From Bacilli bacterium (GTDB lineage Bacteria > Bacillota_I > Bacilli_A > RF39 > UBA660), in contig JAAVZT010000021.1 in NCBI GenBank assembly GCA_022791775.1, positions 1-53,173 on the forward strand: DNA of 53,173 nt, in the 5' to 3' direction. Shown here in pieces: positions 3,257-53,173 of this stretch; position 1 is the stretch's first letter, and every line of letters starts with the position of its first letter. The notes under the pieces were generated by a model that was not told where the DNA came from, searched no databases, and saw nothing but the letters and a program-made list of their open reading frames with translations. The position numbers were made by a program, and so were the translations under genes.

Positions 3257-3522
3257 TATTCAGCAGTTTCTGCTTTTTGAAATTCTTCAAAAATAGCTTC
3301 TTCAAACATTTTACGAACATCTGGATTAATTGGATGAGCAATGTCACGGTAATCCCCAGTAGCTGTTTTTCTACTTGGCATAGCAATAAATAATCCATTA
3401 TCTCCTTCAATAATACGAATATCATGAATAGCAAAAGAATCATCGATTAAAACAGATGCAATTCCTTTCATTCGAGAGCCTTCTTTTTCAATTTTTCGAA
3501 CGCTTACTGATGTTATCTTCAT
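3256..3522 (-). CDS. spoVG: Septation/sporulation regulator SpoVG
   Basis: An 88-residue SpoVG with an almost canonical sequence: start MKITSVSVRKI, the core ASVLIDDSFAIHDIRI (residues 22-37), GLFIAMPSRK (46-55) and HPINPDVRKM (63-72). SpoVG is a small nucleic-acid-binding regulator that affects asymmetric septation, cortex formation and, in other Firmicutes, virulence and cell-wall genes. It has its own promoter just upstream and its own terminator. Clear identification. Confidence 0.96.
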   Translation of the reverse strand: MKITSVSVRKIEKEGSRMKGIASVLIDDSFAIHDIRIIEGDNGLFIAMPSRKTATGDYRDIAHPINPDVRKMFEEAIFEEFQKAETAE

Positions 3523-3561
3523 AGTTACACTCCTTCTAAAGTTTTAATCAAACTTATTTAT

Positions 3562-3590
3562 ATCATATAGCAGATAATCTTGGAAATCAA
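3562..3590 (-). promoter_or_regulatory. Promoter for spoVG
   Basis: On the minus strand TTGATT (3585-3590), a 17-bp spacer and TATGAT (3562-3567), about 40 bp before the spoVG start codon: a housekeeping-type promoter. No clear sigma-H sequence was seen. Confidence 0.6.
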
Positions 3591-3597
3591 TAGGTTT

Positions 3598-3810
3598 TTA
3601 CATATACTTTACTTGTACTTCACCCGTTATCACATCTGCATAATTAAAGCTTTTTTCGACTCCATTCACTAAAACTGTAAAAATATAAGGATACATTTTC
3701 GAAATTCGTCCAATAAAATATTCTGTCTTATTTCGAAGTCCATATACTGAAATTTCTACATTTTCATTCATATGTTTTTGCATTTCATTTTTAATTATAT
3801 CCAGATTCAA
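3598..3810 (-). CDS. veg: Veg family protein
   Basis: A 70-residue Veg homologue. The family features are the two strands around NVEISVYGLRNKTEYFIGRI and the C-terminal FNYADVITGEVQV, matching the Bacillus YSYADILTETV ending. Veg is strongly expressed in vegetative cells and promotes biofilm matrix gene expression in B. subtilis. The start appears to be TTG, with AAAGGA 10 nt upstream. It follows yabG as in B. subtilis (yabG-veg). Confidence 0.85.
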   Translation of the reverse strand: MNLDIIKNEMQKHMNENVEISVYGLRNKTEYFIGRISKMYPYIFTVLVNGVEKSFNYADVITGEVQVKYM

Positions 3811-18512: not shown

Positions 18513-18524
18513 ATTTTCACCTAT

Positions 18525-18602
18525 AAAAAAAGTGCACACAAACAGGGATTACATTGGCTGCTATCTTCCGATTCTGACCAGTTTGCAATATATTTGTTGC
18601 AC
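18525..18602 (-). ncRNA. ffs: Small SRP RNA (4.5S/scRNA)
   Basis: The minus strand carries GGTCAGAATCGGAAGATAG followed by CAGCC, matching the SRP helix 8 motif (GGUCAGG.CCGGAAGGAAGCAGC) with the GGAA tetraloop closed by AUC/GAU pairs. The flanks pair outward: AUAUUG with CAAUGU, and GUGCA-ACAAA with UUUGU-GUGCAC. A T run follows. The estimated length is about 75 nt, short even for the bacterial small type. Location beside tadA and dnaX is the usual Firmicute position. Confidence 0.88.
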
Positions 18603-18608
18603 ATATAC

Positions 18609-18637
18609 ATTTTAACAAAGAGAAAAGCTTTTATCAA
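18609..18637 (-). promoter_or_regulatory. Promoter for the SRP RNA
   Basis: TTGATA (18632-18637), a 17-bp spacer and TAAAAT (18609-18614) on the minus strand, 6-7 bp before the inferred RNA 5' end. Confidence 0.8.
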
Positions 18638-26945: not shown

Positions 26946-28319
26946 TCAAATTTTATTTTTTATTTCTTTAATTGTATTAGAAAGTGTTGGATTTGTTTTT
27001 AAATCCTTTTCTATTTTATCACAAGCATGAATCACAGTCGAATGATCTCTTCCTCCAAATTCTAAACCAATGCGTGGAAAGGTTTCATCCGTTAGCATTC
27101 GACATAAATACATTCCAATTTGCCTAGGATAAGCAATATTTGCACTTTTCTTCTTTCCCTTTAAGTCTGCAATCGTAATATTATAATAATCTGCTACTGC
27201 TTTTTGAATGCCTTCAATACTATTCACAGAATAAATATTTTTATTAATAAAATCTTTTAAAGCTTCATTTGAGAATTCTAAATCAATCACATCTGGAACA
27301 ACCATTGCAGTATAAGCCATCAGTCGATTAATCGCTCCTTCTAAAAAACGAACATCATTTTGACAACTATTTGCAATAAACTCTATTACATCTTCCGTTA
27401 CTTTATTTGCAATACTTGTATTTTTCAACTTTTGTTTAATAATTTTACACCTTAATTCAAAATCTGGAGGATAGATATCCACAGGAAGTCCCCACATAAA
27501 ACGGCTTCGCAATCGATCTTCAAGAATTTTTAAATCATCAGGGGATCGATCCGAACTAATAATAATTTGTTTATTATCATGATGCAGAGCATTAAACGTA
27601 TGAAAAAACTCTTGCTGAGTCTTTTCTGCTCCTACCAAATATTGAATATCATCAATAATTAAAACATCGACTCCCCTATATTTATTTTTAAAATTATTGG
27701 CATATTCTACTGTATTATTCTTATTTTCTAAGTTAGCAATTCCAGTATAATCATTCATAAACATGTCACTAGTTGTATAAAGAACCTTTTTATTTGAATG
27801 TTCAACAATATAATTGCCAATTGCATGCATTAAATGGGTTTTTCCAAGTCCACTCTTTCCATATATAAATAGTGGATTATGAATCTTACCAGGAGCTTCT
27901 GCCACGGCCATTCCCGCAACTTTAGCCAGTCGATTGGAATCACCGACTACATAATTTTCAAAGTTTAATTCAGGAATTAAATTTGTTTCCCAAGAATCAG
28001 AAGTAATGGTTGATTCTTCCGAAATTAGTTCCATTTGGAAGTTATCCACAATATCATTTTGTTCATCCTCTAAAAAAAATTCAATATCAAAGTTCACACC
28101 AGTTAATTTAAAAAAAGTATCTTCAATTAGTGTATAATAATTGTCTCCTAATATTTTTTTGTGTATTTCCATTGGGACTTGAATTCTTATTTTATGTTGA
28201 AGACGGTCTAATTTTATTAAAACTAGATCGTGAAACCATGCATGGAATGAAGCTGCATTGATTTCTTTATAGATTAAATCTAAAAAATTTTGCCATAAAC
28301 TATCTATTTCAGTTGTCAA
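26946..28319 (-). CDS. dnaA: Chromosomal replication initiator DnaA
   Basis: The AAA+ initiator that binds TTATCCACA boxes and melts oriC. 457 residues. Domain I is N-terminal; domain III has Walker A GKSGLGKTHL, Walker B VLIIDDIQYL and sensor SSDRSPDDL. Domain IV carries the signature GGRDHSTVIHACDKI. The start appears to be TTG at 28319, 6 nt after GGTGGGTGA. A possible promoter TTGTTC-17-TACAAT lies upstream on the minus strand within oriC. Confidence 0.98.
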   Translation of the reverse strand: MTTEIDSLWQNFLDLIYKEINAASFHAWFHDLVLIKLDRLQHKIRIQVPMEIHKKILGDNYYTLIEDTFFKLTGVNFDIEFFLEDEQNDIVDNFQMELISEESTITSDSWETNLIPELNFENYVVGDSNRLAKVAGMAVAEAPGKIHNPLFIYGKSGLGKTHLMHAIGNYIVEHSNKKVLYTTSDMFMNDYTGIANLENKNNTVEYANNFKNKYRGVDVLIIDDIQYLVGAEKTQQEFFHTFNALHHDNKQIIISSDRSPDDLKILEDRLRSRFMWGLPVDIYPPDFELRCKIIKQKLKNTSIANKVTEDVIEFIANSCQNDVRFLEGAINRLMAYTAMVVPDVIDLEFSNEALKDFINKNIYSVNSIEGIQKAVADYYNITIADLKGKKKSANIAYPRQIGMYLCRMLTDETFPRIGLEFGGRDHSTVIHACDKIEKDLKTNPTLSNTIKEIKNKI

Positions 28320-41773: not shown

Positions 41774-43381
41774 ATGAACATAACCAATTTAAGTTTTTCT
41801 TATAATGAAGATATTATTTATCAAGATGTAAATCTAATACTAAACGAAAAAGATCATATCGGAATAGTAGGAGTAAACGGTGCAGGAAAAAGTACTTTTT
41901 TCAAATTAATATTAAAAGAGCTTTTGCCAGATCAAGGGACAATTAAAATTAAAGCAAATATGAGAATATCCTATCTTCCTCAAGTAATTACAGATGAAAT
42001 ACCCAATTTAAATATTACTGTTTTTGAATATTTATTATCAGCAAGACCCATTCAAAAAATTGAACAAGAAATGAATACTTTATATATCAAATTCGCTGAA
42101 AACCCAGAATCTATAGAGATTCAAAAACGACTTTCTTATTTACAAAATCAATTAGATTATTGGGACTACTATGAAGCAGATAGTATTTTATTTCGGTTGA
42201 TTGAAGATCTCCATATTTCTAGTAAATTACTAGATCAAAAATTAACAGATTGTTCGGGAGGTCAAAAATCTAAAATAGCATTTGCGAAAATATTATATAG
42301 TAAACCAGAAATTTTATTATTAGATGAACCAACAAATCATTTAGATATCGAAACAAGAGCTGCCGTAATCGAATATTTAAAAAAATATGATGGAATGGTT
42401 TTAACCATCTCTCATGATAAGGAATTCTTAAACGCCACAACGAATAAAACTCTTTGGATAGATAAACAAACAAAAAATATGGAATTAGTTTTGGGAAATT
42501 ATGAAGAATATCGAACTAAAAAACAAATCGCAGAAATGAATTTAGAAAAAGCTTATCAACAAGAGCAAAAAGAAATTAATCGTTTAAAATCTATTGTTAA
42601 TTTGTATAGTAATTCTTCTGGAAAGCGAAAGAGAATGGCAGAATCTCGAGAAAAGACATTAAATAAAATATTAGAAAATCAAATAACACTACGCAAAACG
42701 GACAAAAAAATAAAAATGAAAATGCAAATTGAAGAAAATGGAAGCACCATTCCTTTAAAAATAGAAAACATTATATTTGGTTATCAACAAAAAGAATTAT
42801 TCGAAAATATTTCGTTTGATATTTATCGTGGAGAAAGGCTTTTAATAGTTGGGGAAAATGGAGTCGGAAAATCAACCTTATTAAAATTGATTGTGAATAA
42901 ATTAAAACCATGGAATGGAAATATTAAAATAACGAATAAAACAATTTTAGGATACTATGCACAAGAACATGAAACATTAGAACAAGAAAAAACAATAATA
43001 GAAAATTTACAAACATTTCAATTAAATGCAAGCCAAATAAGAGCTCATTTAAGTGCCTTTTTATTCCAAAACAATGATATTTATAAAAAAGTATCCCAAC
43101 TTTCACCTGGTGAACGAAGTAGATTAGCTTTAGCTAAACTAGCTTTAACAAAAGCTAATGTATTATTATTAGATGAGCCAACAAACCATTTGGATCCAGA
43201 AACACAAGATCAGATTGCTAATTTTTTTAAAAGCTATAAAGGTAGTATTTTATTAGTAAGTCATAATTTACCATTTGTTGATAAAATAGGAATTGATCGA
43301 ATTTTACTATTACCAAAAGGTGAGATATTATATTATGATCCAGAAATAATAAAATATTATGAAAATTTGAATAAAAAATAA
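41774..43381 (+). CDS. ABC-F family ATP-binding protein
   Basis: A 535-residue soluble protein with two ABC ATPase domains: Walker A GVNGAGKST and GENGVGKST, signatures CSGGQKSK and LSPGERSR, and two DEPTNHLD motifs. The linker between domains (about 235-310) is helical and charged, as in ABC-F ribosome-binding factors. It may release stalled ribosomes or confer antibiotic protection; the subfamily cannot be settled by eye. It is co-directional with prmC and spoIIR with short gaps. Confidence 0.9.
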   Translation: MNITNLSFSYNEDIIYQDVNLILNEKDHIGIVGVNGAGKSTFFKLILKELLPDQGTIKIKANMRISYLPQVITDEIPNLNITVFEYLLSARPIQKIEQEMNTLYIKFAENPESIEIQKRLSYLQNQLDYWDYYEADSILFRLIEDLHISSKLLDQKLTDCSGGQKSKIAFAKILYSKPEILLLDEPTNHLDIETRAAVIEYLKKYDGMVLTISHDKEFLNATTNKTLWIDKQTKNMELVLGNYEEYRTKKQIAEMNLEKAYQQEQKEINRLKSIVNLYSNSSGKRKRMAESREKTLNKILENQITLRKTDKKIKMKMQIEENGSTIPLKIENIIFGYQQKELFENISFDIYRGERLLIVGENGVGKSTLLKLIVNKLKPWNGNIKITNKTILGYYAQEHETLEQEKTIIENLQTFQLNASQIRAHLSAFLFQNNDIYKKVSQLSPGERSRLALAKLALTKANVLLLDEPTNHLDPETQDQIANFFKSYKGSILLVSHNLPFVDKIGIDRILLLPKGEILYYDPEIIKYYENLNKK

Positions 43382-43413
43382 AAAAAGATTGCATAAGTTA
43401 ATTGGGTGAACTT

Positions 43414-43923
43414 ATGAAAAAATTAATAATTGTCTTATTTGCAATCACAGTGATACTTAGTTTATCAAACCATAAACAAGAAATTTTAATTCCAGATAAT
43501 TCGATTCGGTTTCGAGTTATTGCAAACAGTAATTCTGAAGAAGATCAGGAAATGAAAATAAAAATAAAAGAAGAAATAGAACAAGAACTGAATAAACAAA
43601 TACAACAAGCAAAAAATATAGAAGAAGCTCGAGAACTTATTAAAAACGACTTATTAAAAATTAATGATATTGTTACAAACTATAATATACCTTATCAATT
43701 GAACTTTGGAATGAATCCATTTCCAGAAAAAGAATATAAAGGTGTGACATATAAAGCTGGTGATTATGAATCTTTAGTAATCACTTTGGGTAGTGGACTC
43801 GGAAAAAATTGGTGGTGTGTAATGTTTCCACCATTATGTTTATTAGAAGCCGAAGAAAATAATTTAAATGAGGTTGAATATCAATTTTTTGTCAAAGAAA
43901 TGCTAAATCAGTATCTGGAATAA
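43414..43923 (+). CDS. spoIIR: Stage II sporulation protein R
   Basis: The forespore-secreted signal that triggers SpoIIGA to process pro-sigma-E. 169 residues with an N-terminal signal/membrane segment, IRFRVIANSNSEEDQEMK and the conserved GKNWWCVMFPPLC. The start is ATG at 43414 after GGTGA. Its place near prfA-prmC is as in B. subtilis. Confidence 0.94.
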   Translation: MKKLIIVLFAITVILSLSNHKQEILIPDNSIRFRVIANSNSEEDQEMKIKIKEEIEQELNKQIQQAKNIEEARELIKNDLLKINDIVTNYNIPYQLNFGMNPFPEKEYKGVTYKAGDYESLVITLGSGLGKNWWCVMFPPLCLLEAEENNLNEVEYQFFVKEMLNQYLE

Positions 43924-43927
43924 CTAT

Positions 43928-43964
43928 GTCCTCCATACATATAATGAAACAGGAGGACTTTTTT
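43928..43964 (+). promoter_or_regulatory. Hairpin that terminates spoIIR and covers the mntP ribosome-binding site
   Basis: GTCCTCC (43928-43934) pairs perfectly with GGAGGAC (43952-43958), and six T follow. The second arm is also the mntP Shine-Dalgarno (AGGAGG). The hairpin would end spoIIR transcripts, or block mntP translation in read-through RNA. Confidence 0.55.
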
Positions 43965-44501
43965 ATGGTTGAAATCGTTACAATTTTAACAATTGCCGTT
44001 GCATTAAGTATGGATACTTTTTCTCTATCTTTGGGAATTGGAACATGTAATTTATCTCATAAAAAAAGTCTTACTTTAGCGTCCACAGTGGGAATAATGC
44101 ACTTTATTATGCCTTGTTTTGGAATATTAATTGGTAATACCGTTTTAAATTTTTTTGAATTAAATAGTAACTTACTATTGGGCATTATCTTAATTGTAAT
44201 AGCGGGACAAATGTTATATGAAATCTTTAGTCAAGAAGAGAATACGATTCAATTAAATTTTGGTGGTATTTTATTATTTGCTTTTGGAGTAAGTATTGAT
44301 GCTTTTTCTACAGGATTAGGGTTAACAGCGATTACAGAAAATATTATTTTGGCAATGGTTGTTTTTTCAATAATCAGTTTTTTATTTACCTTATTAGGAC
44401 TTTTAATTGGAAAATATGCAACTCATTTACTTGGAACATATGCTAGTATATTTGGAGCAATTTTATTAATTGTTATTGGAGTCAGCCATTTGTTAAAATA
44501 A
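43965..44501 (+). CDS. mntP: Manganese efflux pump MntP
   Basis: A 178-residue, six-helix membrane protein with the repeated acidic motifs ALSMDTFSLSLGIG and GVSIDAFSTGLGL, which are typical of MntP (DUF204). It exports excess Mn2+. No yybP-ykoY Mn riboswitch was recognised upstream, but the ribosome-binding site is in a hairpin. The start is at the ATG after AGGAGG. Confidence 0.93.
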   Translation: MVEIVTILTIAVALSMDTFSLSLGIGTCNLSHKKSLTLASTVGIMHFIMPCFGILIGNTVLNFFELNSNLLLGIILIVIAGQMLYEIFSQEENTIQLNFGGILLFAFGVSIDAFSTGLGLTAITENIILAMVVFSIISFLFTLLGLLIGKYATHLLGTYASIFGAILLIVIGVSHLLK

Positions 44502-44563
44502 TAAATCTTTACAAAAGTTATGGATTCCTTTATATTAAATAAGAACAAATGAAGGTGATTAGA

Positions 44564-45820
44564 GTGAAACAAATAATTATTGAAGGTGGATATGAATTAT
44601 CTGGAACAATCCCTATTTCAGGAATGAAAAATAGTGTTGTTGCATTATTACCTGCCGCAATATTATCCGATGAAGAAACAAGTATTTCAAATGTTCCAAA
44701 CATATCTGATAAAGCAGCATTAATTGAAATAATTAAAATTTTAAATGGAAAAGTAACCGAGCTGAATAATGTAGTTACCATTAATTCAGAAAATATTATT
44801 TCTAATTTAATTCCAGAAAATTTAGCCAATAAATTACGTGCAAGCTATTATTTTATGGGGGCCTTATTAGGAAGAAAAAAACATGTTGAAATTTATTTTC
44901 CTGGAGGATGTAATATTGGAAATCGTAAAATAGATTATCATATAAAAGGATTTGAAGCATTAGGGGCCAAAATAAAAGAAGAAAATGGAAAATGTATTAT
45001 TCATGCCGACCGTTTGATAGGTGCTACAATCCCTTTAGAATTTGCTAGTGTCGGAGCGACAATTAATATTATGTTAGCAGCAGTAAAAGCAGAAGGAGTC
45101 ACTGAAATTCAAAACGCTGCCAAAGAACCAGATGTAATTAATATAGCAAATTTTTTAAATAACATGGGTGCTAAAATAACGGGTGCAGGAACAAATACAA
45201 TCAAAATCGAAGGAGTTAACTATCTTCATAAAGCAAAAATTGAAGTTTTTCCAGATCGTATCGAAGCAGGAACTTATTTAATTTTAGGAGCTCTAATTGG
45301 TAAAAACTTAACGATTTCTAATATTATTCCATCTCATATTGAAGCATTATTAGAGAAATTGCAGGAGGCCGGAGTTACATATAAATTAGGAACAAATGAA
45401 GTATTTATTGAAAATCATGTATCCTTAAAATCTATTAACGTTACAACAGCAGTCTATCCAGGTTTTGTAACAGATTGGGGGCAGCCATTAAGTACATTAT
45501 TAACTCAATGTTCTGGGGTATCTATATTTGAAGAAACAATTTACGAAAATCGAATGGGACATGTTCCATATTTAAATCGAATGGGAGCCAATATGATTGT
45601 AGAAGATCGAAAGATTTATATTACAGGAAAAACAGAATTAAAGGGTACAGATGTGATTGCTACAGATTTAAGAGCAGGAGCCTCCTTAATGTTAGCAGGA
45701 TTAATTGCAAATGGAATAACCAAGATAAATAATGCAGAACATATCTTAAGAGGATATGAAAAAATTGTCGAAAAACTTAGTAACGTAGGTGCTAAAATCC
45801 AAATAGTGGACATAGAATAG
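44564..45820 (+). CDS. murA: UDP-N-acetylglucosamine 1-carboxyvinyltransferase MurA
   Basis: The first committed step of peptidoglycan synthesis: transfers enolpyruvate from PEP to UDP-GlcNAc; the target of fosfomycin. It has ISGMKNSVVALLPAAIL (usual SGAKNAALPILAA) and the catalytic cysteine in FPGGCNIGNR, so a fosfomycin-sensitive type. A GTG start (44564) behind AAGGTGAT fits better than the ATG at 44549. 418 residues. Confidence 0.95.
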   Translation: MKQIIIEGGYELSGTIPISGMKNSVVALLPAAILSDEETSISNVPNISDKAALIEIIKILNGKVTELNNVVTINSENIISNLIPENLANKLRASYYFMGALLGRKKHVEIYFPGGCNIGNRKIDYHIKGFEALGAKIKEENGKCIIHADRLIGATIPLEFASVGATINIMLAAVKAEGVTEIQNAAKEPDVINIANFLNNMGAKITGAGTNTIKIEGVNYLHKAKIEVFPDRIEAGTYLILGALIGKNLTISNIIPSHIEALLEKLQEAGVTYKLGTNEVFIENHVSLKSINVTTAVYPGFVTDWGQPLSTLLTQCSGVSIFEETIYENRMGHVPYLNRMGANMIVEDRKIYITGKTELKGTDVIATDLRAGASLMLAGLIANGITKINNAEHILRGYEKIVEKLSNVGAKIQIVDIE

Positions 45821-45843
45821 TAGAGTAAAAGTCTACTTTTTTA
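45819..45843 (+). terminator. Terminator after murA
   Basis: AGTAGA/TCTACT stem with a 7-nt loop followed by seven T, directly at the murA stop. Confidence 0.65.
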
Positions 45844-45855
45844 TTTGGGGGAATC

Positions 45856-46536
45856 ATGAAAAAAAAGATTTTGTTAATAATTCTGATTGGAACAATATTT
45901 ACTTTTTGGATTTATCAAGAAAATAAAAATAATAATATTTATTTTGTAGCATTAGGAGATGGACTAGCCACAGGAATGACAGCATATTATGTGGAGGGAT
46001 ATAATTATAATGATTATATTCGTGATTATTTCGAATCAAATCAGCAATTAGAAAAATATATTTCTAATTTTGCAAAAACTGATCAAACCGTAGAAAACTT
46101 AATAACTTGTATAGAAAACAATTATCGCTTAGAAGAAACAAATTTAACCATTCAACAAGCACTTGCCAAAGCAAAAATTATCACAATTGGAATTGGAATG
46201 GATGAATTAATGAATTTATCTTTAAAACAAAATATTCCATCAAAAGATATAGAGGATTATAAAAAAGATATGGAAAAATTATTGAAAATCATTCGTAATT
46301 TTAACAATAATGAAATATATTTAATTGGATTATATAAAGGTTATAATTTAAAGGATGATACTGTATTAGAAATAAATAATGCTTTAAAAGAAATCGCTAA
46401 TCAAAATCAAATAATATTTATAGATATCTCTGATTTTCCTGATAAAAATCAATATTATTTATTAAATACAAGCTACTATATTAATTATAAAGGACATAAA
46501 GAAATTGCAAATCGAATTTTAAGCAGCATTTATTAA
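45856..46536 (+). CDS. SGNH/GDSL-fold protein with catalytic residues lost
   Basis: A 226-residue protein with an N-terminal membrane anchor (about residues 4-20). The first SGNH block reads VALGDGLATG, with Gly36 in place of the catalytic serine. The third block is IGIGMDEL, and the last block is YYINYKGHKEIA, without the usual Asp-x-x-His. All three triad positions therefore look replaced. The fold call is from motif spacing. It may be a binding protein or a pseudoenzyme outside the membrane. It lies after the murA terminator and immediately before the large RNA. Confidence 0.6.
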   Translation: MKKKILLIILIGTIFTFWIYQENKNNNIYFVALGDGLATGMTAYYVEGYNYNDYIRDYFESNQQLEKYISNFAKTDQTVENLITCIENNYRLEETNLTIQQALAKAKIITIGIGMDELMNLSLKQNIPSKDIEDYKKDMEKLLKIIRNFNNNEIYLIGLYKGYNLKDDTVLEINNALKEIANQNQIIFIDISDFPDKNQYYLLNTSYYINYKGHKEIANRILSSIY

Positions 46537-46545
46537 TATTCTAAT

Positions 46546-46574
46546 TTGACAAATCAATAAAAATATAGTATAAT
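46546..46574 (+). promoter_or_regulatory. Consensus promoter for the large ncRNA
   Basis: TTGACA (46546-46551), exactly 17 bp, TATAAT (46569-46574). The strongest promoter in the window. Predicted start near 46581, just before the RNA closing stem. Confidence 0.88.
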
Positions 46575-46580
46575 CCTAAA

Positions 46581-47111
46581 ACATGTGGTGCATTATTCTA
46601 GTCATTCACCCAATATGAAGGTAGGCCTAAAAATCTATCAATTGCATGAAAGCACTTTATATAACTTGCTTCTTCGGCCCAAGTTGGGGCAATTATATAA
46701 TTTTAAATTTTAGGAAAGTTATAATGGCATATAACCAACCTCCTAAAATTACGCATAATAAAAAAAGTGTATGTCGTGCGTGGATACGTGGGAGATAATG
46801 AAATAATTTCTATTTCTGATCAAGTAGAAATATTATCAAAATCGTATTTGCAAAAGCGAATAAGTATTGATAAGTGAATGTCAGGGAAAACCTCTAGAAT
46901 GTCATAATTATAAGGATTAAAGTACGGACTCAGTGGTAATCGAGTAATTAAGCTTGGCAACACTTAGTTACTTTCTTGAAAGAGAAATCGCCCTCGGGTA
47001 ACCAAAGGTAGAAAGTAGAGAAATTCAACTCGACCTAAGCCGTAAAATTAATTTATAATTTACCACAACCAAAACCATTGTAGCTAAAAAGATTCATAAT
47101 GAATCTTTTTT
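46581..47111 (+). ncRNA. OLE-type large structured non-coding RNA
   Basis: About 530 nt with no credible ORF. Its ends pair (TGTGGT 46584-46589 with ACCACA 47062-47067). Internal stems include a perfect 10-bp helix 46706-46715/46741-46750 enclosing GTTATA/TATAAC (46718-46723/46730-46735) and TATTTGC/GCGAATA (46845-46862). A 3' domain nests TACGG/CCGTA (46923/47040), TCGAGT/ACTCGA (46940/47028) and a 10-bp hairpin (46943-46952/46963-46972). A terminator ends it. The known OLE RNA is about 600 nt and lies directly upstream of its membrane partner OapA; the next gene here fits OapA. The family call rests on size, promoter, structure and neighbour, not a model search. Confidence 0.75.
47086..47111 (+). 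terminator. Terminator of the large ncRNA
   Basis: AAAGATTC/GAATCTTT stem with a 5-nt loop followed by six T, 25 bp before the oapA-like gene. Partial read-through could give oapA mRNA. Confidence 0.75.
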
Positions 47112-47135
47112 CATAAGTTTAGAAAAGGAGATTTT

Positions 47136-47642
47136 ATGCGTTGGTGGCCGATAAAAGTCTTTGTTTTATCATTCGTTTTAGCAGCTATTTTTAGCACTTT
47201 AACCAATATGTGTGCAAATATGAATATTTTAATTTTATTACTGATTATTTTTGCTGTAATAGCACTAGGAATATTGTTTGATATGATTGGTGTAGCAGTT
47301 CTGACAAGTAAAGAATCAAATTTTCATGCCATGTCATCAAAAAAAATTAATGGAGCAAAAGAGACAATTTCTTTATTAAGAAATGGAAATATTGTTTCTA
47401 GTATTTGTAATGATGTAATTGGTGATATTTGCGGGATTATTAGTGGAGGGTTAGGAGCAATTTTAACGGCTTATTTAATAGCTCAAGGGTTTCATTTACT
47501 ATTTTCTACTACAATAGTCACTGCAACAATATCTGCATTAACCGTAGGTGGTAAAGCATATGGTAAAAAAATTGCAATGAAAAAAAGTGATAAAATTGTT
47601 TTTGGAGTAGGAAAAATTAAAAGTATGTTGCATATTAAATAA
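47136..47642 (+). CDS. oapA: OapA-like membrane protein (OLE RNA partner)
   Basis: A 168-residue protein with four likely membrane segments (about residues 7-25, 31-53, 98-120, 124-145). It has the family-like block FDMIGVAV (48-55), NFHAMSSKKINGAK (62-75) and NDVIGDICG (92-100), where D93-x3-D97 fits the DX3D motif described for OapA. OapA binds OLE RNA and anchors it in the membrane; this RNP is linked to alcohol and cold tolerance and to Mg2+ homeostasis in Bacillus halodurans. The basic C-terminus (KAYGKKIAMKKSDK) could bind RNA. It has an AAAAGGAG site and no separate promoter after the RNA terminator. Identification is from motif and context. Confidence 0.72.
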   Translation: MRWWPIKVFVLSFVLAAIFSTLTNMCANMNILILLLIIFAVIALGILFDMIGVAVLTSKESNFHAMSSKKINGAKETISLLRNGNIVSSICNDVIGDICGIISGGLGAILTAYLIAQGFHLLFSTTIVTATISALTVGGKAYGKKIAMKKSDKIVFGVGKIKSMLHIK

Positions 47643-47679
47643 AGAAAAAGAATAAGATAAAAATATTGAAAGAATCATA

Positions 47680-47707
47680 TTGCAAGTCTAAAAAATTATG
47701 ATATAAT
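47680..47707 (+). promoter_or_regulatory. Promoter for rpmE
   Basis: TTGCAA (47680-47685), a 16-bp spacer and TATAAT (47702-47707) with an extended TG. Confidence 0.65.
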
Positions 47708-47726
47708 ACAAAAGAAAGAAATTACT

Positions 47727-47744
47727 ATGCCTAAATTTAGGTAT
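47727..47744 (+). promoter_or_regulatory. Palindrome in the rpmE leader
   Basis: CCTAAATTTAGG with flanking ATG/TAT (G-U) forms a stem between the promoter and the ribosome-binding site. L31 leaders with autoregulatory structures are known in Firmicutes; a metal-regulator operator is an alternative. Function is inferred. Confidence 0.35.
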
Positions 47745-47763
47745 GGCGAAAGGAGACATATTA

Positions 47764-47982
47764 ATGAGAGCCAATATTCATCCAGAAATGAAAGAGGTTG
47801 AAATAAAATGCGCTTGTGGAGCAACATTTAAAACGATGTCTACAAAAGAAAAAATTGACGTAGAAGTTTGTAGTGAATGTCATCCATTTTATACTGGAAA
47901 ACAAGGAAATGCTAAAAGAGCAGGGAATATTGAGAAATTTAATCGAAAGTATAATTTAAATCAAGAAAATAAGAATAATTAA
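47764..47982 (+). CDS. rpmE: 50S ribosomal protein L31, zinc-binding form
   Basis: A 72-residue L31 of the C+ type: KCACGATF and [13 protein letters not shown] supply the zinc cysteines. The start is at the ATG after AAAGGAG; the longer frame starts inside the leader. It has its own promoter and terminator. Confidence 0.96.
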
Positions 47983-48012
47983 AAAAGTAGACAAATTAGT
48001 CTACTTTTTTTT
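47981..48012. terminator. Bidirectional terminator, rpmE / collagen-like gene
   Basis: AAAAAAGTAGAC/GTCTACTTTTTTT stem with a 6-nt loop serves the two convergent genes. Confidence 0.8.
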
Positions 48013-48028
48013 ATTAAATTTTGAACAA

Positions 48029-48883
48029 TTAGTTAATTCTAGTAATAGATACGGAAGCAGAATATAAATCATTTGGAACAAGCTCGATACCAACTGGTGA
48101 GGAATTTATAAAACGATAAGTAGCGCCAGATTGTGCATAAAATATTGCATTTCCTACAATAGAACCTGTTTCATTGAAGAATAAACGGTTATGAGTTGAT
48201 GAATGAGCAATTAATGAATCATTTGGCCAAAATTCATGGAATTCTACTCCTAAAGCAGCACAAGTTCTAGTTAATGTATTATTGTTACGAACATTAATCC
48301 ACCAATTAATTAAATACTGTCCATCATCGGGAATAGTAAACTCGCCATTAATAGGATTGTAAGTTATTCCATTACTTAAATTAATTGTATTAAATCGGAT
48401 TACATCATTACTTGGAATTTGTATTTCAGATTCATCATGAACCATAGCCGCTGCATTGAAAGATGGGCCAGTAGGACCAGTAGCACCTTGAGGGCCAGTA
48501 GGACCAGTAATACCTTGAGGGCCAGTAGGACCAGTAGCACCTTGAGGGCCAGTAGGACCAGTAACACCTTGAGGGCCAGTAGGACCAATTATACTAATAC
48601 CCTGAGGGCCAGTAGGACCAGTAATACCTTGAGGGCCAGTAGGACCAGTAACACCTTGAGGTCCAGTAGGACCAGTAACACCTTGAGGGCCAGTAGGACC
48701 AGTAACACCTTGAGGGCCAGTAGGACCAGTAGCACCTTGAGGTCCAGTAGGACCAGTAATACCCTGAGGGCCAGTAGGACCAGTAGCCCCTCTAGGCCCA
48801 GTAGGACCGCATTTGATACAACATCTTACAAGATTACATAGACATTCATCGTTATGATCTAAATTATAATTATTATCTTGCAT
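48029..48883 (-). CDS. Collagen-like spore-surface type protein (BclA-like)
   Basis: A 284-residue protein. A cysteine-rich head ([13 protein letters not shown], residues 13-25) is followed by about 12 GPTGPQGxT repeats (26-141, one interrupted by Ile-Ile) and a C-terminal domain of about 140 residues with a TNF/C1q-like strand pattern ([31 protein letters not shown]). This is the layout of exosporium glycoproteins such as BclA. No signal peptide, consistent with spore-surface assembly. A sigma-K-like -10 (CATATTGTA, 48904-48912) lies upstream, but its -35 partner is not at the expected distance. Spore-surface location is inferred. Confidence 0.82.
48461..48808 (-). repeat. 27-bp tandem repeats coding GPTGPQGxT
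   Basis: About 12 near-identical 27-bp units encode collagen Gly-X-Y triplets, with only the eighth residue varying (I, A or V). Such arrays often change copy number between strains. Confidence 0.92.
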
Positions 48884-49068
48884 TTTTTTCTCCTTTCATA
48901 CTTTACAATATGATAAATAAAAAAAGTGATATCGTTAAATATCCTAGATTTTATAAAAAAAATCCAAAATTTTAATAAAAACAGGAACAAAAATCCAAAT
49001 TTTGAATAAATATGCATTTTTTGACTAAATTATTCGATAATTTACAATTTTAACTTTTAAAAAAGTCA

Positions 49069-49077
49069 TGATATAAT
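49069..49077 (+). promoter_or_regulatory. Extended -10 promoter for the ATP-grasp gene
   Basis: TGATATAAT ends at 49077, so the transcript would start within about 10 nt of the coding start, giving a very short leader. Confidence 0.55.
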
Positions 49078-49092
49078 ATTAATGTGATTAAT

Positions 49093-50085
49093 ATGAAACA
49101 AATCAAGAAAAGTATTTCTTTGAATTATCGAGATGTAAAACATGAAATAAATAAAATAGCTAAAAAAACAAATAAAAATAAATTATCGCTTCTTATAGAT
49201 TTGTTTTTTTGTCATTTAAAATATAAATCAGATGCGAAAGATTATTCCATTTTTGAAATGTATAATATGAATCAATATGAAAGAAAAACATTAGTAACAA
49301 AAGGAATTAATTTGCAATATATGATAAAATATAATGATCCAAAATTTATGCATATTTTTCATAATAAGGCAGAGTTTAATAAAACATTTAACAGGTTTTT
49401 AAATCGTGATTGGTTAGAACTCAATTCAGAAAATAAAAACGAATTTGCTCATTTTTGCTTAAAACATAATTTTATAATGGCAAAATCAGTTCATTCTCAA
49501 TATGGAGATCAAAGTGATAAAATAGATACAACTGTAAGAAATTTAAAAGAACTGTATGAAGAATTAATGGAAGATAATAAAACCGTAATTGAAGAAGTAG
49601 CAATTCAATGTCATCAGTTAAGAAGAATTCATCCAGAAAGTATAAATACAATACATGTAATAACTTTCTTAGGAAATGTGGTTTCATGTTATTTACAAAT
49701 GGGAAATAATCACAGTATTAATTCGAATTTCGAACAAGGTGGTTTAGTAGCTCCCATAGATATTAATACAGGAATAATTATTTCTCCCGCAATTGATAAA
49801 GAAGGAAATGTTTATAGTGATCATCCGTTGACTAAAGTAAGAATTTTAGGTTTGGAAATACCTCGCTTTCAAGAAATCATACATTTTTGTGAGAGTGCAG
49901 CATTAGAAGTTCCTCAAGTGGGTTATCTTTGTTGGGAAGTTGGAGTAGGTGTAAATCAATGCTTTTTTATGGAAGCAAATGAATTTCCAGAACATATCAT
50001 TTATAATTTGCCTCCACATCGTCAAAATAATAAAGGAATTTTACCGGAATTTAAAAAAATAGAAGAAAGGAAATTTGAAATATGA
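49093..50085 (+). CDS. Sugar-transfer associated ATP-grasp protein
   Basis: A 330-residue protein. The C-terminal half shows the pattern of the sugar-transfer ATP-grasp family: QGGLVAPIDINTGII, SDHPLTKVRILGLEIPRFQE, VGYLCWEVGV and a late acidic MEAN ligand motif. Family members are found in polysaccharide gene clusters; the substrate is unknown. It is divergent from the collagen-like gene (200 bp apart) and overlaps rpiB by 4 nt. The start could be the GTG at 49084 or ATG at 49093. Confidence 0.7.
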   Translation: MKQIKKSISLNYRDVKHEINKIAKKTNKNKLSLLIDLFFCHLKYKSDAKDYSIFEMYNMNQYERKTLVTKGINLQYMIKYNDPKFMHIFHNKAEFNKTFNRFLNRDWLELNSENKNEFAHFCLKHNFIMAKSVHSQYGDQSDKIDTTVRNLKELYEELMEDNKTVIEEVAIQCHQLRRIHPESINTIHVITFLGNVVSCYLQMGNNHSINSNFEQGGLVAPIDINTGIIISPAIDKEGNVYSDHPLTKVRILGLEIPRFQEIIHFCESAALEVPQVGYLCWEVGVGVNQCFFMEANEFPEHIIYNLPPHRQNNKGILPEFKKIEERKFEI

Positions 50086-50528
50086 AAATATTTATTGGAG
50101 CAGATCATAATGGCATAATTTTAATGAAACAATTAAAAGAATATTTAGAATCGATGAATTTTAAAGTTGAATTAACAACAATCCAAAATAATGATACAGA
50201 TGATTACCCAGATTTTGCTTTTGAAATAGCTCAAAAAGTAGCTCAAGAACAAGAAAATTTAGGTATACTTATTTGTGGAAATGGAATAGGAATAAGTATA
50301 GCTGCAAATAAAGTGAGAAATATACGCTGTGCAAGAGTAACAAATGACGAAGATGCTAGAAAAGCTAAAAATCACAATGGAGCAAATATTATCGCATTCG
50401 GTGGGATTTCATTTGAAGAAGCTAAAATAATTGTAGATGTTTTTCTTCAAACACCTTTTCCAAAAGAAAAAAGACATATTCGAAGAATTCAAAAGATTAT
50501 GGATTATGAATTAGGAAAAAATAAATGA
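50082..50528 (+). CDS. rpiB: Ribose-5-phosphate isomerase B
   Basis: A 148-residue RpiB/LacAB-family sugar-phosphate isomerase with IGADHNG, the catalytic cysteine in ICGNGIGISIAANK and NHNGANIIAFG. Interconverts ribose-5-P and ribulose-5-P. It overlaps its neighbours by 4 nt on each side (ATGA), so it is in one operon with the ATP-grasp and DUF1146 genes. Confidence 0.94.
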   Translation: MKIFIGADHNGIILMKQLKEYLESMNFKVELTTIQNNDTDDYPDFAFEIAQKVAQEQENLGILICGNGIGISIAANKVRNIRCARVTNDEDARKAKNHNGANIIAFGGISFEEAKIIVDVFLQTPFPKEKRHIRRIQKIMDYELGKNK

Positions 50529-50725
50529 ACGTTAAAATATATTTCTATGTATTTTTTACAATGTTAAGTGCATATACATTAACGGGAGTAAATTTTGATG
50601 CTTGGATGAAAAAAAATAAAATATGGGAATCCCGTTTATTAGTTATTATATTGTCTTTCACATTGGGATATTTGTTAACCAATTTTATTTTTGATTTTCT
50701 AAAATTAAGCAAAATAATTGGGTGA
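50525..50725 (+). CDS. ywzB: DUF1146 membrane protein (YwzB-like)
   Basis: A 66-residue protein with two membrane segments (about residues 3-22 and 38-58) and the family pattern NFDAWMKKNKIWESRLLVIILSF... ending FDFLKL. In B. subtilis ywzB lies near atpC upstream of murAA-spoIID-spoIIQ; here it directly precedes spoIID. Function unknown. Confidence 0.75.
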   Translation: MNVKIYFYVFFTMLSAYTLTGVNFDAWMKKNKIWESRLLVIILSFTLGYLLTNFIFDFLKLSKIIG

Positions 50726-50730
50726 ATAAA

Positions 50731-51723
50731 TTGAAAAATAAAATTCTGCTTAGCATAATCATTTTATTGAGTATAACACTGGTTTTAGAAGTTAGTTTTA
50801 AGAGTGAAACTAACTTTTCTTTATATGAAAAGGAGATCGGCACACAAGATTCTAACGAACAAATAGAGACTTATAAGAAAGAAGAAAAAAAAATAGAGGA
50901 AACTAAAGATTTTGAAAATGATAGAATAATCAAAGTATATGATCCTAAAACAAAAGAGATTAACGAAATGAAATTAGAAGATTATATTATTGGAGTAGTT
51001 GCTGCAGAAATGCCAGTATCATTCGAATCAGAAGCACTAAAAGCTCAAGCAGTTGCAGCAAGAACTTTTGCATTATATAAGATGGAACACCGCAATTTAG
51101 ATTATGATATTATAATAGGTGTATCGGATCAAGCTTATAATAACTTAGATGAAATGCATCAAAAATGGCAAAATAATTTTGAACAAAATTATAACAAAGT
51201 AAAAGAAGCTGTTTTAAATACTCAAAATGAAATAATAACTTATCAAGGTAAAACAATAGAATCATTTTATTTTTCTATGAGTAATGGTTATACCGAAAAT
51301 TGTGAACTTGTGTTTCAAGAACAATTACCTTATTTAACAAGCGTAGAATCAAACTGGGATAATGAAAATATCAAAAATTATGAAGTACAAAAAAAAGTAT
51401 CAAAATCAGAATTTTGTCAAATATTAAGTATTAATTGTAATAATATTATTATTTCCGATATAAAACGAACAGAAGCAAAAAGAGTTGATACTATTACGAT
51501 TAATGACAAAACTTTGAAAGGTGTTGAGATGCGTAAATTATTATCTTTACGATCTACTGATTTTGATATCGAAATTGGTGAAGAAGTAGTGATCACAACA
51601 AGAGGATTTGGGCATGGTGTAGGAATGAGCCAATATGGTGCAAATGGTATGGCTAAAGAAGGAAAAGATTATCAGCAAATTTTAAAATATTATTATCAAA
51701 ATATAGAAATTTCAAAAATATAA
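50731..51723 (+). CDS. spoIID: Stage II sporulation protein D
   Basis: A lytic transglycosylase that drives engulfment by dissolving septal peptidoglycan in the mother cell. One N-terminal membrane segment, then the SpoIID domain with VVAAEMPVSFESEALKAQAV (the family's catalytic Glu in AEMP), FSMSNGYTEN and the C-terminal GFGHGVGMSQYGANGMA. I favour TTG at 50731 behind GGGTGA; the GTG at 50722 lies in that site and overlaps the previous gene. Confidence 0.96.
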   Translation: MKNKILLSIIILLSITLVLEVSFKSETNFSLYEKEIGTQDSNEQIETYKKEEKKIEETKDFENDRIIKVYDPKTKEINEMKLEDYIIGVVAAEMPVSFESEALKAQAVAARTFALYKMEHRNLDYDIIIGVSDQAYNNLDEMHQKWQNNFEQNYNKVKEAVLNTQNEIITYQGKTIESFYFSMSNGYTENCELVFQEQLPYLTSVESNWDNENIKNYEVQKKVSKSEFCQILSINCNNIIISDIKRTEAKRVDTITINDKTLKGVEMRKLLSLRSTDFDIEIGEEVVITTRGFGHGVGMSQYGANGMAKEGKDYQQILKYYYQNIEISKI

Positions 51724-51773
51724 CTGTATAAATTTGGAATTCATGGTTAACACTATAAGTGGAAGGTGAAATC

Positions 51774-52415
51774 ATGAAAAAAAGAAAATTAAAAAAGTAT
51801 GTATTACCAAGCATTTATGGATTAGTAGTTGTATGTATGTTTTTAACAGTTTATTTTTTAAATAATAGCTTAAATTTCAAACAGCCAGAAGTAGAGCAAA
51901 AATCAAAAATTGTGATAGAACAGCCTGATTATGAAGAAGATAAAGCTGTAGTAAATACAGTACCAAATAAACCAATTATACCATTTAATAAAGAAAATGT
52001 TAAAATAAGTAAATCATTTTATAAGCAAGATGATGATGCAACGAATCAGCAAAATTCTTTGATTTATTATGAAAATACTTATATGCAAAATACAGGAGTT
52101 TTATATAGTAGTGAGGAAATTTTTGAAATTTTAGCAAGTGTAGATGGTACCGTGAAAGAAGTAAAAGAAGATGAAATTTTAGGATCAGTAGTTACAATAG
52201 AATATAATAAAAATGTGGTAATTGCATATTATAGTTTGAGTGATGTAAAAGTTAATTCTGGAGATCTTGTAAAAACAAATGATATTATTGGTACAAGTGG
52301 TACAAATAAATTGGAAAATGAAAAACAAAATTGTCTTCTTTTTGAAGTGTATATTAACGGAAATTTAGTGAATCCAATTGAATTTTTTGAAATGAATTTA
52401 GAAGAGTTAAAATAA
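51774..52415 (+). CDS. spoIIQ: Stage II sporulation protein Q (inactive LytM type)
   Basis: The forespore half of the SpoIIQ-SpoIIIAH channel across the intermembrane space. 213 residues: one membrane segment (about 11-31) and a LytM/M23-like domain (about 115-205). The zinc motifs are lost: the first His/Asp region reads NTGVLYSSEE, and the HxH site reads LLFEVYING. So it is structural and not a peptidase. Location right after spoIID is the Bacillus order. The start is ATG 51774 after AAGGTGA. Confidence 0.9.
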   Translation: MKKRKLKKYVLPSIYGLVVVCMFLTVYFLNNSLNFKQPEVEQKSKIVIEQPDYEEDKAVVNTVPNKPIIPFNKENVKISKSFYKQDDDATNQQNSLIYYENTYMQNTGVLYSSEEIFEILASVDGTVKEVKEDEILGSVVTIEYNKNVVIAYYSLSDVKVNSGDLVKTNDIIGTSGTNKLENEKQNCLLFEVYINGNLVNPIEFFEMNLEELK

Positions 52416-52446
52416 AAATAATTTTTTTTGAAAATAGAGATTAACT

Positions 52447-53058
52447 ATGATAAATGAAATATATCTTTATTTTGCTGATAATTTAGTTCAATGTTATCAT
52501 CTTAAATCAAATCGTTTTATAGAAATAAAATTATCTAAAAGGATTTTCAAAGAAGGAAAAATCATCCATCGTCCAAAGTTTCTTCATGAATTTAAAGTTT
52601 TATTAAAAAAATATAAATTAATAAAAAATTTTCAGAAAAATAAAATTTACTTAATTACTCCTCCAAATTTTGAGGAAGTTGATAAAGAAATTATCAAAAT
52701 TATTTTTGAAGATTTACCTATTCAAGAATTAAAACTGATTAAAGAAACTTCTTTATACAAAATGAAAAAAAATGAACTATGGATAAATTTCAATGAAACT
52801 TATGCTTTTTTAACCACTAGTCATAAAGAAAAAAAAGAAACAATAATTTGGAATGATATCGGTTTTAATTTTTTAGAAGTATTAAAGCGTTTTTTATTAT
52901 CATATCCAAGAATAAAAAAAATTATCATAATTGGTCATGGAAAGTTGCTCTATCAAAAAGTGAAAGAAATTGAAAAAGAGTGTCAAAAAAAGACTTTTTA
53001 TTATGAAGAACCACATAAGTTTTTATTAACTTATTTTACACGACTTAACAGAAAATGA
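52447..53058 (+). CDS. Hypothetical protein downstream of spoIIQ
   Basis: 203 residues, not recognised. No signal or membrane segment. It is basic and rich in Lys/Ile. Alternating strand/helix segments (IYLYFADNLVQCYHL, KIYLITPPNFEEVDKEII, KKIIIIGHGKLLYQKVKEI) faintly recall one half of an actin/HSP70-like ATPase, but no phosphate loops are convincing. In Bacillus the region after spoIIQ leads to spoIIID and mbl (an actin homologue), which makes a decayed actin-like protein one idea. Weak ribosome-binding site; a strong terminator follows. Confidence 0.6.
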   Translation: MINEIYLYFADNLVQCYHLKSNRFIEIKLSKRIFKEGKIIHRPKFLHEFKVLLKKYKLIKNFQKNKIYLITPPNFEEVDKEIIKIIFEDLPIQELKLIKETSLYKMKKNELWINFNETYAFLTTSHKEKKETIIWNDIGFNFLEVLKRFLLSYPRIKKIIIIGHGKLLYQKVKEIEKECQKKTFYYEEPHKFLLTYFTRLNRK

Positions 53059-53076
53059 GAGGAAGTCGTGTTTTTT
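53038..53076 (+). terminator. Terminator after the 203-residue gene
   Basis: ACACGACTT/AAGTCGTGT perfect 9-bp stem followed by six T; the gene's stop codon is in the loop. Confidence 0.8.
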
Positions 53077-53099
53077 ATGATGAAAAAATAGGAGGTATG

Positions 53100-53108
53100 T
53101 GATATAAT
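53100..53108 (+). promoter_or_regulatory. Extended -10 promoter before the last gene
   Basis: TGATATAAT extended -10, about 34 bp before the TTG start at 53142. Confidence 0.5.
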
Positions 53109-53141
53109 TGCCAATAGTAAACAGATAGAAGGGTGAGTAAG

Positions 53142-53173
53142 TTGACGATTTTTGTTGTGGTAGAGGATGACAA
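53142..53173 (+). CDS. Possible response regulator, 5' fragment
   Basis: Only about ten codons before the window ends. TTG start behind GGGTGA, then TIFVVVEDD, the typical first strand and acidic pair of a receiver domain. Too short to be sure. Confidence 0.35.
   Translation, partial: MTIFVVVEDD

Follow-up and report, generated by a model that had tools for sequence, protein, structure and literature searches.

The stretch analyzed (hereafter the window, 53,173 nucleotides in full) contains an OLE RNA and, next to it, the gene encoding OapA, the membrane partner of this RNA. OLE RNAs are among the largest structured bacterial RNAs, and OLE is among the last RNAs of such size and conservation in bacteria to which no biochemical activity has been assigned. 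The Rfam covariance model of OLE, with which the earlier note had proposed to search the region, matched with 229.5 bits, far above the gathering cut-off of 50 bits, and the sequence of the downstream protein, its co-occurrence with OLE and its predicted fold all identify it as OapA. Both parts of the original proposal, an OLE-type RNA and an OapA-like partner, are thereby borne out. The coordinates of the features are listed in Table 1.

Table 1. Features of the OLE-oapA locus, in window coordinates.
Feature	Position	Strand	Evidence or remark
SGNH/GDSL-hydrolase-like protein (upstream neighbor)	45856..46536	+	Pfam Lipase_GDSL, E 5e-6
Sigma-70 promoter, TTGACA-17-TATAAT	46546..46574	+	12/12 match
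OLE RNA (Rfam RF01071 match)	46569..47082	+	E 1.7e-63; model positions 1-616 (end to end)
P4 hairpin, A-rich loop CCUAAAAA, putative RNA-dimer contact	46620..46639	+	Projected structure; CUAAAAA conserved
P5 hairpin, loop GCCCA (46677-46681), putative L6 kissing partner	46656..46701	+	Projected structure; GCCCA conserved
P6 hairpin, loop AAUGGCAU	46706..46750	+	Projected structure and loop comparison
Shortened J6/7 to P9, P7 and P8 absent	46751..46772	+	cmscan alignment
P9 arm	46773..46860	+	Apical hairpin P9.3 46806-46831, palindromic GAUC in loop (46818-46821)
3' domain (domain 2)	46904..47061	+	Closed by pairing of its 5' and 3' parts, 46904-46914 with 47052-47061
Terminator-like A+T-rich hairpin with T-run, separating OLE from oapA	about 47086..47111	+	Sequence
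oapA	47136..47642	+	168 aa; DxxxD at residues 93-97 (47412-47426)
L31-Firmicutes ribosomal leader match	47725-47755		30.4 bits against a cut-off of 33.3 (sub-threshold); directly upstream of rpmE
rpmE (L31; downstream neighbor)	47767..47982	+	

Structure and conservation of the OLE RNA

Projection of the Rfam structure onto the window gave 117 pairs, of which 108 were standard. In the cmscan alignment 14 nt were found between P6 and P9 in place of 80 model positions, which means that P7 and P8 are missing. The match covers the whole model in 514 nt, while full-length OLE RNAs contain P7 and P8 and are about 600 nt long. The absence of P7 and P8 defines "variant 2" OLE, which occurs in Bacillota with reduced genomes and is common in the RF39 clade (Fernando & Breaker, 2024, PMC11332333). 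Both helices were entirely absent from the window RNA, as they were from the other variant-2 RNAs aligned. The likeness to the published variant extends to the highly conserved nucleotides, which are kept, to the position beside oapA and to a host from an uncultured, reduced-genome Bacillota lineage in which OapB and OapC are not found. The shortened RNA and such a host lineage are thus already published (PMC11332333). To the extent that the literature shows, what is new here is the covariation of variant-2 RNAs, their frequent loss of P9.3, the coupling of the kink-turn strands, and the tests of partners and anticorrelations within one family.

Across an alignment of 27 variant-2 RNAs, the one from the window included, the bases pair as the structure requires in 93.7% of the 2654 pair cells, compared to 37-45% when the partners were slid as a control, and changes on both sides of a pair were found at 66 of 108 pairs. 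This argues that the OLE RNA is under selection and not decaying. The opposite reading, that OLE is here a decaying relic of a shrinking genome which lost P7, P8 and the partner proteins as the complex lost its function, draws on the shortened RNA, on the failure to find OapB or OapC, on the family genomes without OLE (about a third) and on three family genomes (G063, G134, and G197) with OLE matches of ~380 nt. However, decay would not keep covariation, loops, the DxxxD motif and the promoter. The strong compensatory change over the 27 RNAs largely refutes the relic reading, and the invariant loops, the intact OapA with its invariant DxxxD and the perfect promoter stand against it as well, so that we consider it very unlikely.

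Promoter and transcript ends

Promoter-like sites were no more numerous in this region than in shuffled sequences, and it is the perfect match alone that is notable; the promoter described in the earlier note was recovered at every position. Between OLE and oapA we found the terminator-like hairpin, and the genus has similar hairpins of changed sequence at five further loci (L018, L019, L021, L126, and L129), while L023 and L028 have none. From this hairpin with its T-run, kept in the five other loci, we infer a transcript from about 46581 to 47111, both ends being approximate. Its length would be about 530 nt, in agreement with the size first proposed.

As OLE lies directly upstream of oapA and on the same strand, the stretch could mainly be a long structured leader controlling oapA rather than a free-standing RNA. 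This we find highly improbable, because six loci of the genus have the terminator-like hairpin between OLE and oapA, the two can lie apart elsewhere in the family (L015), and in Halalkalibacterium halodurans the OLE RNA and OapA form a complex at the membrane (PMC12265935). Membership in another large RNA family that resembles OLE, such as ROOL, GOLLD or RNase P, has a negligible probability and is already refuted, since a permissive Rfam scan of 43000-53173 returned OLE and the sub-threshold L31 leader and nothing else, with only OLE passing the Rfam thresholds there and its whole model covered.

The predicted fold of OapA resembles that of CNNM transporters

The 168-residue open reading frame containing NDVIGDICG was present as described, and D93 and D97 were invariant in 57 aligned OapA proteins. 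The CNNM domain (PF01595) was matched weakly by 44 of these 57 proteins, the match of the window OapA being below the Pfam cut-off, and a weak likeness of OapA to CNNM proteins has been published (PMC11332333). No solved relative was found when sought by sequence. The predicted structure of OapA (pLDDT 89.6) has long helices at residues 4-28, 31-57, 84-116, and 121-149. Residues 29-167 of the model were superimposed on the transmembrane domain of MtCorB (7M1T) with a Z-score of 13.2 and an rmsd of 2.2 over 130 residues, compared to a Z-score of about 8 for the best unrelated helical proteins; the Foldseek E-value, 9e-3, is modest when taken alone. The earlier description of a four-helix membrane protein with a DX3D motif therefore holds, given the DxxxD motif, the four predicted long helices and the CNNM-like fold. 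While OapA shares the transmembrane domain fold with the CNNM/CorC/MpfA Mg2+ transporters, it differs from them in having the DxxxD motif and an extra N-terminal helix, which was left unaligned with MtCorB, and in having no CBS or CorC domains.

Within the family, loci with short OLE RNAs have an OapA without a basic N-terminal tail, which gave rise to the idea that this tail contacts P7/P8. The idea was rejected, because short tails are found together with full-length OLE in Bacillus species and some Oscillospiraceae.

Dimer contacts

According to cryo-EM, two OLE RNAs touch each other at four sites: L4 with L4, L5 with L6 twice, and the palindromic P9 loop with itself (PMC12265935; PMC12286853). 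P7 and P8 are not among the contacts and are hence possibly dispensable (PMC12265935). In the 27 variant-2 RNAs three of the four contacts are kept: CUAAAAA in L4 and the core GGCA of L6 were found in all 27 and the core GCCCA of L5 in 26. The fourth is missing from most, the P9.3 loop region being empty in 20 of the 27. A GAUC palindrome in the P9.3 loop was found only in the window RNA and two others (L030 and L032), so that the window RNA differs from most of its kind in keeping this hairpin. The fourth contact thus also appears dispensable in variant 2. By analogy with the clostridial RNA the variant-2 RNAs would still form dimers; as most of them have no P9.3 kissing loop, such a dimer must differ from that of the clostridial RNA.

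Kink-turn strands and partner proteins

OapC binds a kink turn with J4a/5 as the 5' strand, while the 3' strand is J5/6 (k-turn 1a) or, according to cryo-EM, J6/7 (k-turn 1b) (PMC9723947; PMC12286853; PMC12054373). Covariation evidence for k-turn 1b is already published (PMC12054373). We scored motifs for J4a/5 (CNNTGAA) and J6/7 (GGAGAC-like), which were chosen after viewing the sequences and each of which occurs by chance in ~4% of shuffles. Among 99 distinct OLE RNAs both motifs were found in 70, neither in 29 and one alone in none; the 99 include near relatives and are not independent, and the independent joint losses number perhaps three. The 29 RNAs with neither strand are the variant-2 set together with two that do not belong to variant 2, L009 and L052. 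Both strands are retained in L107, which belongs to the genus of L009. In L009 and L052 a J5/6-like sequence, read by eye, is kept, which favors the partnership of J4a/5 with J6/7.

No L7Ae-family protein (OapC, YbxF) was found in any of 19 genomes with OLE or in any of 117 genomes of the family, while B. subtilis and other controls were positive. Likewise, a search for KOW domains revealed no candidate for the KOW protein OapB in the 19 genomes: in nearly all of them the hits were limited to two open reading frames of the size of RplX and NusG. The look-up of OapB and OapC in this genome, as suggested in the earlier note, thus returned neither. Although no OapC was found in the family, its full-length OLE RNAs retain both kink-turn strands, which are therefore not kept there by OapC. 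We tentatively propose, at somewhat less than even confidence, that J4a/5 and J6/7, the kink turn at the P5 base, together belong to the structure of the P7/P8 side of the RNA and do not represent a site for OapC as such. Variant-2 OLE would in that case be the natural minimal complex of OapA and an RNA dimer joined by L4 and L5:L6, perhaps with bS21, and without kink turn, OapB or OapC.

The gene for bS21 was found in 19/19 genomes with OLE, but as bS21 is near-universal its presence is weak evidence. In H. halodurans bS21 binds a mimic of the SD/ASD duplex in P6 (PMC12054373). In the window RNA an SD-like AGGA (46712-46715) faces an ASD-like CCUCCU (46739-46744) in P6, and the two G-C pairs of this duplex were invariant in 27/27 variant-2 RNAs. 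By its position the duplex is the predicted bS21 site.

Proposed complex

It is very probable that the locus encodes variant 2 OLE together with OapA, operating as follows. A stable OLE transcript of about 530 nt is most likely made from its own promoter, and would adopt the OLE fold minus P7 and P8 and pair with a second copy through L4:L4 and L5:L6 contacts. The CNNM-like OapA would hold the RNA at the membrane, and the two would belong to a complex of stress and metal-ion homeostasis. The complex of this lineage would work without OapB and OapC, with bS21 probably still engaged via the SD/ASD-like duplex of P6. The identity of RNA and protein, the fold, the loop conservation and the inventory of partners come from the present analysis. 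Dimerization, binding to the membrane and to bS21, and the role in the cell are carried over from H. halodurans and from the cryo-EM structures of OLE in clostridia.

The full-length OLE complex of H. halodurans (RF01071 with OapA, OapB, OapC, and bS21) shares with the window the RNA architecture, OapA, the P6 SD/ASD mimic and a bS21 gene. In contrast, the window RNA is ~530 nt instead of ~600 nt and has neither P7/P8 nor the J4a/5-J6/7 kink-turn strands, the genome yielded no OapC-family protein or OapB candidate, and the neighbors are not isoprenoid genes. As a natural form that does without P7, P8, the kink-turn strands, OapB, OapC and, in most cases, P9.3, while the remainder covaries strongly, variant-2 OLE shows which parts are needed for the core activity and is also a smaller target for structure work.

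Occurrence within the family

OLE was found in 128 of 193 genomes of the family, in a long form (~530-620 nt), a short form (~465-520 nt) and a few shorter ones. Named relatives, identified via OapA, are mostly uncultured gut bacteria labeled Bacilli or Erysipelotrichaceae, including Candidatus Coprovivens, and these labels fit the RF39 clade of PMC11332333. OapA was absent from 20 of 22 tested genomes without an OLE match. The other two (G002 and G006) appeared to have OapA without OLE, an artefact of a contig end cutting the OLE RNA. OLE thus tracks OapA within the family.

Two published correlations were not reproduced. SpoIID was over threshold in 81/128 genomes with OLE and 51/65 without (p 0.03, ignoring kinship and assembly gaps), a trend that is the reverse of the published one, and a tie of OLE to sporulation within the family was rejected. 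MpfA-type CNNM proteins were found in 9/128 genomes with OLE and 2/65 without (again ignoring kinship and assembly gaps). They are rare in both groups and OLE is lost without a gain of MpfA, which led us to reject MpfA as a replacement of OLE. As neither MpfA gain nor SpoIID presence explains the presence of OLE in the family, the two correlations are limited as general explanations. A single origin of variant 2 was considered from a RecA tree and dropped, the tree being too weak.

Some family members deviated from the common forms. Three genomes have a whole-model OLE match in ~380 nt (G063:C2:57162-57542, G134:C5:12168-12545, and G197:C9:18515-18892; 134-139 bits), far below the length of variant 2, and possibly represent a still smaller OLE form. 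G031 has a second match besides its full-length copy (L024:1501-1885, corresponding to G031:C3:70010-70394), which covers model positions 54-595 in 385 nt near a contig end. At L015 a full-length OLE (1501-2104) with a diverged L4 A-rich loop is separated from oapA (3304-3606) by ~1.2 kb with open reading frames between.

Gene setting

The host assembly, taken as a MAG, is 1.1 Mb in 36 contigs and 91% complete. The gene order murA - SGNH-like - OLE - oapA - rpmE, correctly given in the earlier note, is common to other loci of the genus (L018, L019, and L021) and a sister genus (L023). A dnaA-like open reading frame (26946-28319, identified from its translation) and a switch in GC skew near 28 kb place OLE on the leading strand at a distance of ~18 kb from the origin, which is the sense in which it lies next to the origin. 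This setting distinguishes the window from OLE variant 2 as published. The spoIID gene is located downstream of OLE at 50722-51723 and is followed by a SpoIIQ-like gene.

A few genes upstream of OLE, 43926-44501 encodes an MntP-like manganese efflux pump; OLE phenotypes in H. halodurans have been linked with Mn2+ homeostasis (PMC10898510). Downstream of rpmE, 48029-48883 (minus strand) encodes a collagen-like protein with GPTGPQG repeats, which is found beside OLE in some relatives too (L019 and L126). It is followed at 49084-50085 by a sugar-transfer-associated ATP-grasp protein (PF14397), and similar proteins are encoded near OLE at several variant-2 loci (L018, L020, L023, and L129). The window also contains a bacterial small SRP RNA (RF00169) at 18516-18612 on the minus strand.
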